From: Acidobacteriota bacterium
Lineage (GTDB): Bacteria; Acidobacteriota; Blastocatellia; Pyrinomonadales; Pyrinomonadaceae
Assembly: GCA_020200135.1 (NCBI GenBank)
Contig: JAIVJI010000064.1
Location: 30,988-94,987, forward strand
Length of the DNA stretch: 64,000 nt
Direction: 5' to 3'
In this document: positions 3,809 to 51,647 of the stretch, piece after piece
Layout: every line of letters starts with the position of its first letter
How positions within the stretch are numbered: the stretch's first letter is position 1
Position numbers and translations under genes: made by a program
Notes under the pieces: generated by a model
Database searches by the model: none
The model's input: the letters and a program-made list of their open reading frames with translations, nothing else
Told to the model about the DNA's origin: nothing

Positions 3809-3908
3809 AGAATTAACAGGGATGGACAGGATAGACAGCGATTAAGAACTTAAGATTTGAAATTCTTAAGTCCCTATCCTGTTCATCCTGTCCATCCCTG
3901 TTAATTCT
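3809..3908. repeat. Inverted repeat with 9-nt units between convergent genes
   Basis: Positions 3809-3831 and 3886-3908 are perfect 23-bp reverse complements. Each arm is made of about three degenerate 9-nt units (right arm atcctgttc, atcctgtcc, atccctgtt). The loop holds a smaller nested hairpin (aagaa with ttctt around 3844-3868). It fills the gap between spoIIM and the DUF58 gene, whose stops converge, and could end both transcripts. It resembles the 7-nt elements elsewhere in the window in design but has a longer unit. Confidence 0.85.
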
Positions 3909-5693: not shown

Positions 5694-6647
<954 letters not shown>

Positions 6648-6648
6648 T

Positions 6649-6755
6649 GGCGATTTTAGATTTTTGATTTTCGATTTAAGAACTTGTCTTCGAGAGCCCG
6701 GGCCGCCGTATGTAACCACAGAAAATCGCAAATCAAAAATCTAAAATCGCCAATC
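6649..6755. repeat. Heptamer-array hairpin, unit gattttN
   Basis: Left arm 6652-6679 holds four 7-nt units (gatttta, gattttt, gattttc, gatttaa). Right arm 6721-6755 holds five inverse units (gaaaatc, gcaaatc, aaaaatc, taaaatc, gccaatc). The outer 22 bp pair perfectly, and the order of variant units is mirrored between arms. Loop about 40 nt. It fills the gap between the DUF4350 stop and the MoxR start. It is strikingly AT-rich inside a GC-rich operon. Confidence 0.9.
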
Positions 6756-8165: not shown

Positions 8166-8259
8166 AAGTCTGAAGTCTGGAGTCTGGAGTCAACACAGCG
8201 GCACTCTCAAATTCGTTTTCATTTCCTGCTCAAGACTCCAGACTTCAGACTCCAGACTT
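8166..8259. repeat. Heptamer-array hairpin, unit RagtctG
   Basis: Left arm 8166-8193 has four units (aagtctg, aagtctg, gagtctg, gagtcaa); right arm 8232-8259 has four inverse units (aagactc, cagactt, cagactc, cagactt). Loop 38 nt. The right arm overlaps the last codons of the DUF4129 gene, whose final residues KSGV and stop codon are encoded by repeat units. Unit variants are not strictly mirrored here. Confidence 0.9.
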
Positions 8260-9459
8260 GTTTAGCGCCCGGCGGCAGCGCGTCTTGAAGCTCTCCCAGT
8301 CGGAGGCCGTGGCGTCGCGCAGTCCGTACCAGTGAACCTCGAAGTCGAAGGTGAGCGGGAGCATCTCGGCGTAGAGGCCGGGGCTTGCGGCGCGGCGGAC
8401 GGCGCTCAGGTAATCGCGGTTGGTCTTGTGCTGCGCGAGGCGCACGACGCCGCGGTCGCCCAGCTCGCAGAGCAGCGCGACGTAAGCCTTGCGTATCGCG
8501 CCGCGCAGGTCGCCCGCGAGCGCCAGCCGCTCGGCGTCGTCGAGCAGGTCGGCGACCGTCTGGTCGGCTTCGAGCCGTTCGCCCAGAACGACGCGCGCCC
8601 CGCGCCTTGGCTTGCGCGACCGGCGCCCGCGCCCGCGCCGCAGCCAGAGCAGGCGCGCCACGTACGCCAGCACCGCGAGGCAGAGCAGGAGGACGACCAC
8701 CTGCGTCGTCGTCGAGACGCGCGGGCTCGCGCCACGGCTGATGGGCCCGCCCTTCGGCAAAAGGCTCAGCACCCACTCGACGAAACGTTTGACCAGATTC
8801 TGGAGCGCGTTGCCCTGCTGCCGGCGCACCTCGCGGTCGAACACGGGCGAGCGCAGGATGGCGTTGAGCCGGCCGCGCTCGGCGTCCCTGTCGAGCGGCT
8901 CGGCAGCGCCGCCCTCGGCCTCGGCGAGCCGCGCTTCGAGCGAGCGCAGGCGCCCGGCCGCCGCGCGGAGCCCGGCCGCGTACTTCTCATACTCGTCCGC
9001 GTCCTCGGCGGCCTCGTCGAGCGCCTCGTGGAGCCAGGCGTTGTCAACGTCGATGAAGTCCGCGCCCCGGCCGACCCTCTCGCGCGGCGGCAGCGAGTCG
9101 CGGACTGCGCCGAGCACTTCGGGCGCCGTCTCCTCCAGCTCGGCCTCGACCTCCTCCAGCTCGGCCCCGGCGTCCGTGTCGGACTCTTCATCCGACTCGC
9201 CGGCCGCGGCCGCGCGCTCGTAGAGGGCCGCCAGCTCTTCGAGCGGCTCGACCGCGCCGCGCACGCGCGCGCGGTAGTCCGCGAGCGTCGAAGGGCTCCG
9301 GGCCGGCCGCGCGTCGGCGGCGGGACGAGACTGTGCGTGCTGAGCCGTCGGGAAGAAACAGGCGAGCCCCACGAAGAGGGGGAGTAAGACGGCGTGCGCG
9401 AGCCGCGAGCCGCTGGGCGCGCGTCCCGGCCGAACATTTTTACGGAGCGCGAATCTCAT
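8245..9459 (-). CDS. DUF4129 domain protein
   Basis: 404 residues: a signal-like N-terminal hydrophobic stretch (about 22-42), an acidic, partly coiled extracytoplasmic region (60-220), a membrane helix near 250-272 (VVVLLLCLAVLAYVARLLWL), a basic linker, and a C-terminal DUF4129 domain (about 300-400) with AIRKAYVALLCELGDRG and the TNRDYL and FDFEVHWYG blocks. DUF4129 proteins are found with MoxR/DUF58 and with transglutaminase-like genes; function unknown. The start ATG overlaps the preceding stop (ATGA), indicating coupling. The C-terminus runs into a heptamer hairpin. Confidence 0.85.
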   Translation of the reverse strand: MRFALRKNVRPGRAPSGSRLAHAVLLPLFVGLACFFPTAQHAQSRPAADARPARSPSTLADYRARVRGAVEPLEELAALYERAAAAGESDEESDTDAGAELEEVEAELEETAPEVLGAVRDSLPPRERVGRGADFIDVDNAWLHEALDEAAEDADEYEKYAAGLRAAAGRLRSLEARLAEAEGGAAEPLDRDAERGRLNAILRSPVFDREVRRQQGNALQNLVKRFVEWVLSLLPKGGPISRGASPRVSTTTQVVVLLLCLAVLAYVARLLWLRRGRGRRSRKPRRGARVVLGERLEADQTVADLLDDAERLALAGDLRGAIRKAYVALLCELGDRGVVRLAQHKTNRDYLSAVRRAASPGLYAEMLPLTFDFEVHWYGLRDATASDWESFKTRCRRALNKSGV

Positions 9460-27222: not shown

Positions 27223-27337
27223 GAATCGTAAACCGCGAGCCGTAAATCGTAAAGAGCCGTGAACCGTAAACCGCGAACCGTGACAAGAGAAAGACTATTC
27301 TTACTCGTCACGGTTCACGGTTTACGGTTCACGGCTC

Positions 27338-27339
<2 letters not shown>
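27223..27339. repeat. Heptamer-array hairpin, unit RaaccgT (largest)
   Basis: Left arm 27223-27281 contains eight 7-nt units (gaatcgt, aaaccgc, gagccgt, aaatcgt, then after 3 nt gagccgt, gaaccgt, aaaccgc, gaaccgt). Right arm 27310-27337 has four inverse units (acggttc, acggttt, acggttc, acggctc). Positions 27252-27283 pair with 27308-27339 with one mismatch in 32, and the order of variants is mirrored. The end of the element touches the htrA stop codon (27338-27340), and the other end is 8 bp from the aldehyde dehydrogenase start. Confidence 0.92.
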
Positions 27340-28945
<1,606 letters not shown>

Positions 28946-31182: not shown

Positions 31183-31261
31183 AGTGATAAGTGATGAGTG
31201 ACAGGTGATAAGAAGAAGCGACGGCTCTCTCTTATCACCTGTCGCTCATCACTTATCACCG
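31183..31261. repeat. Heptamer-array hairpin, unit aagtgat
   Basis: Left arm 31183-31210 has four units (aagtgat, aagtgat, gagtgac, aggtgat); right arm 31235-31261 has the inverse (atcacct, gtcgctc, atcactt, atcacc). 28 of 30 positions pair and the unit order is mirrored. The element occupies nearly the whole 90-bp gap between two co-directional minus-strand genes, beginning 3 bp after the stop of the upstream gene. Confidence 0.9.
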
Positions 31262-32097: not shown

Positions 32098-32223
32098 AGT
32101 AGTCAGTAGTCAGTAGTCAGTAGCCAGTAGGGCTACCGCCCGGCGAACGTTGACGCCTGAAACCTGGCGGCTCGGCCCACGAAGGTTTTTCTACTGACTA
32201 CTGTCTACTGTCTCCTGACTACT
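32098..32223. repeat. Heptamer-array hairpin, unit agtagtc, between divergent genes
   Basis: Left arm 32098-32132 has five units (agtagtc three times, agtagcc, agtaggg); right arm 32196-32223 has four inverse units (gactact, gtctact, gtctcct, gactact). Loop about 60 nt. The same unit occurs at 41779-41881. Unlike the other elements it sits between two start codons, so it lies in promoter territory for purF and the glutaredoxin-like gene. A possible purF -10 box (TACAAT, 32233-32238) is just beyond it. Confidence 0.9.
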
Positions 32224-37564: not shown

Positions 37565-37585
37565 TCAACTTTGAACTTTGAACTT
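37565..37585 (+). repeat. Single-armed heptamer array, unit tgaactt
   Basis: Three tandem 7-nt units (tcaactt, tgaactt, tgaactt) between the GNAT stop and the tyrS start. No inverse array was found within 150 bp, so this may be a half element or a decayed one. If the in-frame TTG at 37571 were used for tyrS, the array would encode its first residues. Confidence 0.7.
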
Positions 37586-41770: not shown

Positions 41771-41778
41771 GTAGAAGC

Positions 41779-41881
41779 AGTAGTCAGCAGTCAGTAGAAG
41801 AACTTTCTTATGACGAATCGTCCGTGTGTCAGCGTCAACATCCGCCGAGCGGAGCCTACTGTCTACTGACTACTGTCTACT
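41779..41881. repeat. Heptamer-array hairpin, unit agtagtc (second locus)
   Basis: Left arm 41779-41799 has three units (agtagtc, agcagtc, agtagaa), right arm 41854-41881 four inverse units (gcctact, gtctact, gactact, gtctact). It begins 8 bp after the PilZ stop and ends 7 bp before the RDD start. The unit is shared with the 32098-32223 element 9 kb away; order of variants is not strictly mirrored. Confidence 0.88.
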
Positions 41882-51561: not shown

Positions 51562-51647
51562 GGGTCGGGGAGTCGTGAGTCGGGAGTCAGAATGAAGAAG
51601 GCATCCGCCTTTTAATTCTGACTCCCGACTCCCGACTCCCCGACGCC
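51562..51647. repeat. Heptamer-array hairpin, unit gagtcgg
   Basis: Left arm 51562-51590 (gggtcgg, then gagtcgt, gagtcgg, gagtcag), right arm 51619-51647 (tgactcc, cgactcc, cgactcc, cgacgcc). 28 of 30 positions pair and variants are mirrored. It begins 6 bp after the stop of the upstream gene and lies between two co-directional LTD paralogues. Confidence 0.9.

Follow-up and report, generated by a model that had tools for sequence, protein, structure and literature searches.

Inverted heptamer elements at acidobacterial operon stop codons are probably derived from selfish elements that encode the 23S-rRNA-intervening-sequence protein

In the 64,000-nucleotide stretch of an Acidobacteriota genome analyzed here (the window), a minus-strand gene of the DUF4129 family (8245–9459) ends inside a repeat, which raises the question of how an intergenic element comes to supply the end of a coding sequence and where such elements originate. 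The element (8166–8259) comprises two inverted arms of 26 nt (8166–8191 and 8234–8259) that are 92% complementary and enclose a 42-nt loop (8192–8233); the arms have a 7-bp period and consist of tandem AGTCTGG/AGTCTGA units. It occupies the gap between the DUF4129-family gene and the next gene of the operon, a DUF4350 gene (PF14258; 6759–8159, minus strand), whose start lies 6 nt past the other arm. As the preliminary description had stated, the right arm encodes the last four residues of the DUF4129-family protein and its stop: read on the minus strand, AAG TCT GGA GTC TGA (KSGV and stop) follows directly on ...RALN. PF13559 is matched by 12 of 13 aligned DUF4129 orthologs, the protein of the window alone having no Pfam DUF4129 match. 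In the ortholog alignment the KSGV tail is absent and homology stops near residue 400 of 404, so the tail derives from the element. The DUF4129 proteins of other relatives end in different short element-encoded tails, for example SGQ, SAEY, and TSDK, each followed by a stop.

The same description had the elements supply the ends of coding sequences in general, and comparison of the C termini with those of orthologs divides this claim. It holds for DUF4129 but not for the htrA-like gene (27338–28945, minus strand), whose stop TAA overlaps the outer end of the element at 27252–27339 (family A, CCGTRAA units), which had been described as abutting that stop; the C-terminal QFTYQ of HtrA is conserved, unchanged by the element, and simply abutted by it. 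An element adjoins the htrA stop in 12 of the 14 genomes with a readable C terminus, with CCGTRAA units in the genus and in genome G004 and different units elsewhere. This regular occupation suggests that some elements may be useful as 3′ hairpins.

Under strict criteria, the window contains seven complete inverted period-7 elements, six of them in co-directional gaps. In addition to those at 8166–8259 and 27252–27339, these are an element of AAATCNN units between the DUF4350 gene and a MoxR-like AAA gene (6646–6754), one of AGTGATR units that lies 5 nt past a stop (31184–31259), one of family B (CAGTAGT units) in a divergent gap (32098–32223), a second of family B located 7 nt past the stop of a PilZ gene (41778–41875), and one of GAGTCGG units, again 7 nt past a stop (51564–51644). 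The proximity to stops noted earlier for the elements at 31.2, 41.8, and 51.6 kb is therefore confirmed. The earlier count of six among nine is close to this result. Two other repeats are a one-armed TTGAACT array in a co-directional gap (37565–37585) and the inverted repeat AGAATTAACAGGGATGGACAGGAT (3809–3908), which has a 52-nt loop, takes up a convergent gap beginning at the stop codon, and is not 7-periodic.

The source genome is a 5.27-Mb draft from a soil acidobacterium whose closest named relatives belong to the gp4 Acidobacteriota (Blastocatellia/Pyrinomonadaceae), and samples of 773 kb and 1.15 Mb were scanned for such elements. The smaller sample has 60 inverted elements of period 7 versus 0–5 for periods 5, 8, 10, and 11, and the pattern CAGTAGTCAGTAGTCAGTAG, with up to two mismatches, has 487 matches genome-wide versus one for the reversed pattern; the heptamer elements are therefore not a product of chance. 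The density of elements with inverted arms of seven-base repeats is ∼89 per Mb. Among 102 elements in 1.15 Mb, 68 are in co-directional, 24 in convergent, and 8 in divergent gaps, and one is within a gene. In co-directional gaps the median arm start is at +1.5 nt from the stop and 75% are within 12 nt, genes having been called with a home-made codon-bias caller that makes individual starts approximate. Where at least 40 nt of other sequence is left in the gap, most elements are still at the stop and only 1 of 26 is near a start, and in two congeneric genomes (400 kb) 92% of elements are within 12 nt of a stop. The position at stop codons is thus an observed property of the elements.

The two most abundant families of small elements in the sample are A (CCGTRAA) and B (CAGTAGT), and loops are conserved within families. 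Compared unit by unit, the two arms of a family A element agree at 0.90, versus 0.65 between elements, which suggests hairpin-templated homogenization or a recent origin; for family B the values are 0.49 and 0.39. Family B elements in convergent gaps (C76:18821, C76:172793, C95:8642, C95:33840, and C98:30501) often have a GC-rich inner hairpin, GGCGGCGCG...CGCGCCGCC, with flanking A/T runs, which resembles a bidirectional terminator. Other family B loops have another sequence in common, GGCTCCGCT...AAGGTTTTT, which gives loop and arms a modular appearance.

The orthologous gaps show what these sites look like with and without an element. Between the DUF4129 and DUF4350 genes the gap is empty (0–17 nt) in about 20 genomes, and in about 20 others it is filled by an inverted element that starts at or just before the stop. 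The units at this one place (GTTCAAA, GGCAGTA, GTTTCAA, TTTTCAG, CTGAGTA, AGTGATG, and CGGATTT) differ in a way that looks like repeated, independent gain. In two genomes the gap measures ∼440 nt, and between the arms lies an open reading frame for the 23S-rRNA-intervening-sequence protein (IVP/S23p; PF05635).

The source genome has two PF05635 genes, one in arms of family A and one in arms of family B. The first has CCGTRAA arms with the inner core GACAAGA/TCTTGTC that is found in family A hairpins; it is adjoined by genes that we take, from reading their sequences, to be YebC-like and RuvC-like, and the stop of the YebC-like gene is formed by the first bases of the arm. The second has CAGTAGT arms. 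The arms of each of these families of small elements, including the GACAAGA core in family A, thus recur in one of the two IVP elements. To these were added loci from other genomes, giving a sample of 108 that was drawn from Blastocatellia genomes, included 15 plasmid loci, and covered Acidobacteriota, Cyanobacteriota, and others. Inverted arms bracket the IVP gene in 88 of the 108 by a strict ungapped test; the 20 that failed count against the explanation preferred below. The unit is 7 bp long in 64 of the arm-bearing loci, and units of 8 and 9 bp occur in 12 and 7 loci, respectively. As a control, 442 genes of 200–900 nt were scored for such arms, and only the IVP gene itself exceeded 15 (1/442). 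In 68 of 86 IVP elements a co-directional upstream reading frame has its stop no more than 20 nt from the left arm, versus 11% at random positions. The elements are small (∼430–660 bp) and probably selfish; in the cyanobacterial plasmids L196, L198, and L204 they separate cas6 from cas4 and cas10 from cmr3 in CRISPR-Cas operons. A search of the window and the IVP loci against Rfam gave no match at gathering score.

Several further features of the IVP loci were observed. Arms with 8-bp units belong to a distinct IVP clade (L252, L254, L255, L256, L258, L262, L267, and L208), the arms of L254 scoring 106, and 9-bp units to another set (L175, L179, L181, L213, L224, and L250). The leaders of the two full-length elements, L162 and L163, from left arm to IVP start, share CCGCCAGCGG(G)TGAG..GT.CCGG despite unlike arms. 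In genome G003 a gene of ∼600 nt lies between CAGTAGG inverted repeats (C5:174519–175127, score 15); the listed IVP genes of G003 are on other contigs, and this locus may represent other cargo or two neighboring elements.

Evidence on the gain of an element comes from closely related cyanobacterial plasmids. The site is empty, AAAAAGTAATTAAC, in plasmids of N. linckia and N. carneum and filled, AAAAAGTAAT-AAATCAG...IVP...TTCTTT-GTAATTAAC, in those of T. variabilis and Scytonema, whose flanks are ∼98% identical to the empty plasmids. At the stop codon of the upstream gene, arms and IVP are either both there or both missing. The sequence without an element is AAAAAG-TAA-TTAAC, and the filled site carries GTAAT, stop included, on both sides. 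In three more pairs (L206/L275, L276 with L206 and L275, and L195/L278) the junctions, at TAATG, TTCTAG, and TTAG, fall at the stop triplet, with less exact repeats; plasmid pairs at a TraM site (L200, L272, and L281) are too diverged to give an exact junction. A general test for duplications outside the arms revealed no excess of repeats of at least 5 nt, either for IVP elements (13.8% versus 10.6%) or for small elements (8.7% versus 9.4%), so target duplication has its support in a single clean pair and three less clear ones. Insertion at stop codons, which the preliminary description had offered as one of two possibilities, is strongly supported by the genome-wide placement, by the element-free orthologous sites with abutting genes, and by the filled and empty plasmid sites. 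At the site that is occupied in T. variabilis but not in N. linckia, a plasmid of Nostoc C052 (L280) has a decayed copy with one arm and an IVP fragment, which shows how forms lacking IVP could arise.

These plasmids also bear on two other origins. Plain microsatellite expansion, in which slippage makes the heptamer tracts, template switching makes the palindromes, and no mobile element is involved, would account for the tandem period and for the agreement of family A unit variants between arms, as fold-back copying would give, and heptamers are over-represented in bacteria (PMC4692102). It is contradicted by the gain of arms and IVP together at an empty site, and conserved loops and the occurrence of the same unit in the IVP element of the genome also speak against it; we have rejected it as very improbable. 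Alternatively, IVP genes could be passengers taken up in the loops of heptamer hairpins of some other, earlier origin, as might be expected from the excess of small elements over IVP forms (about 89 per Mb versus two IVP genes in the genome). However, arms and IVP are missing together from plasmids ∼98% identical to that of T. variabilis, the arm unit follows the IVP clade, and the L280 copy, having lost most of its IVP, points in the opposite direction. The passenger model is unlikely on these grounds and was also rejected.

The correspondence between unit and protein is observed at two levels. IVP identity correlates with the similarity of units read on the same strand (Mantel r 0.29, 0/2000 permutations) but not on the reverse strand (−0.03). 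The clade with the MRPHEKL motif has GTRAAYN-like units, the FEDIxAWQKAR clade has AGTYT-type units, the kind found in the element at 8.2 kb, and most 8-mer units belong to a DLEVYKKAFEAAM-like clade. The abundance of a unit also goes together with the IVP that carries it. CAGTAGT arrays are abundant in 3 of 40 genomes (G026, G000, and G037, with 1092, 272, and 234 matches; at most 44 in the others), and CAGTAG-type arms accompany a sampled IVP in exactly these three; CCGTRAA, stray matches aside, is limited to the genus and G004. Co-inheritance alone could be a sufficient cause of the correlation, and recognition of the unit by the protein is an inference from it. Mobilization of REP/REPIN elements by a Y1 (RAYT) transposase would fit palindromic, abundant, intergenic elements in a genome that has two Y1_Tnp genes. 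Neither of these genes has arms or heptamer tracts around it, and the units vary freely without a fixed REP tag; this origin is disfavored and, in our estimate, extremely improbable.

We therefore consider it probable that the hairpins of the window are nonautonomous, MITE-like derivatives of IVP-encoding selfish elements that insert at, or survive only at, the stop codons of operons. The small elements are short, have terminal inverted repeats, lack an open reading frame, and occur in many copies, and they have a putative autonomous partner with the same termini. Two further points count against this explanation. The AGTCTGG unit of 8166–8259 is unlike the units of both IVP elements in the same genome, so this element would be a relic, and we know of no transposase-like catalytic domain in IVP.

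A complete element, in the proposed mechanism, would have an arm of roughly four units in tandem, each of 7 bp or, in some clades, of 8 or 9 bp, followed by a brief leader, the reading frame for the four-helix-bundle protein IVP/S23p, and an inverted copy of the arm; this anatomy is itself observed in the sampled loci. The protein would recognize the tandem units and mobilize small derivatives in trans, a step that we favor with some reserve. Insertion may produce a staggered target duplication of 4–6 bp, although we place this a little short of probable. The upstream gene would still end in a stop, which could be the original, a duplicate of it, or, after a tail such as KSGV, one contributed by the arm, and the downstream gene would retain its start region. 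The closest solved homolog of IVP, at E 3.9e-32, is Xanthomonas campestris XCC0516 (2gsc, five chains), and the Xanthomonas S23p is described as a homopentameric ring (PMC4990558). Speculatively, arms with about four or five units might match such a pentamer.

As RNA, the elements of the window fold far better than shuffled sequences (z −4.3 to −14.5), with −47.5 kcal/mol and z −7.3 for 8166–8259, z −14.5 for 27252–27339, and z −12.6 for 51564–51644. RNase III cleaves rRNA intervening sequences that carry S23p (PMC4990558), and it may, by analogy, act likewise on the stems of the present elements; that a stem of 20–40 bp in mRNA would act as an RNase III substrate or as a barrier at the 3′ end, as in 23S rRNA, is a role for which the case is nearly, but not quite, even. 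The stability of the stems is also what would be expected if the hairpins were host-beneficial 3′-end elements (terminators, RNA stabilizers, or processing sites) selected beside stops, their origin being secondary. The elements lie at stops and within convergent gaps but rarely in divergent ones, which agrees with such selection, as do the occupation of most htrA sites by differing units, some loops that resemble bidirectional terminators, and the report that in Xanthomonas the starts or ends of transcripts coincide with quadruplex-forming repeats more often than with control repeats (PMC4692102). However, about 20 DUF4129-DUF4350 gaps have no element, the units at one site are unrelated between genera, many elements lie within operons, a T-run is missing from most, and the IVP inside the arms is left unexplained. 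As a primary explanation we hold host use to be possible but rather doubtful; as a secondary role, by domestication, it can be true of elements that derive from IVP-encoding parasites.

Heptamer arrays and S23p/IVP have each been without explanation for decades, and a link between hairpin and IVP would give both an origin. The gene inside the arrays, the unit that follows the protein clade, and their joint arrival at a stop connect the two problems in a form that can be tested. A parasite can enter gene-dense operons with little harm at stop codons, sometimes adding residues to the upstream protein. More tentatively, selfish elements that lack a transposase may form a widespread class in which a pentameric IVP reads the tandem 7–9-bp units of the inverted arms, approximately one per subunit, and brings about insertion at stop codons through a new, possibly RNA-linked mechanism; such a class would explain the cyanobacterial, xanthomonad, and acidobacterial heptamers, with rRNA intervening sequences as one branch.

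Heptamer repeats near stops and IVP-bearing intervening sequences in 23S rRNA are each known; the joining of the two appears to be new, no paper that connects IVP with heptamer arrays having been found in the open-licence literature. The cyanobacterial short tandemly repeated repetitive (STRR) sequences are said to have been described by Mazel in 1990 as tandem heptanucleotide arrays of Calothrix and Nostoc with an unexplained origin. The present elements are likewise tandem heptamer arrays between genes, and IVP elements with such arms occur in Nostocales plasmids; none of the papers found links STRR to IVP. MITEs and REPIN/RAYT systems resemble the present elements as small, palindromic, nonautonomous intergenic repeats but differ in having a transposase, the protein linked to the present elements being the four-helix-bundle IVP. 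The TAACTGA repeats of Beggiatoaceae (PMC4679880) are also abundant intergenic heptamer arrays, found in Cyanobacteria and Bacteroidetes as well, but they are direct arrays of one unit that are mostly just upstream of start codons. The heptamers of Xanthomonas and Nostoc (GGGAATC and GGGGA(C/T)T), with four units preferred and 70–75 inverted pairs per Xanthomonas genome, are closer, since they too lie near or overlap stop codons and are under-represented between divergent genes (PMC4692102); in contrast to the present reading, they were interpreted as quadruplex-forming, a connection with mobile elements was not seen by the authors, and S23p/IVP is not mentioned in the text (PMC4692102). The intervening sequences of 23S rRNA that carry an S23p/IVP reading frame, for example in Coxiella burnetii, have the same protein family, a size of ∼430–500 bp, and a patchy distribution, and their reading frame is flanked by terminal inverted repeats that pair into a stem of ∼28 bp; they have been termed selfish elements (PMC4990558). 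The present elements differ from them in lying between protein genes at stop codons rather than inside the 23S rRNA gene, in having arms of tandem 7–9-mers, and in having many derivatives without IVP in each genome.
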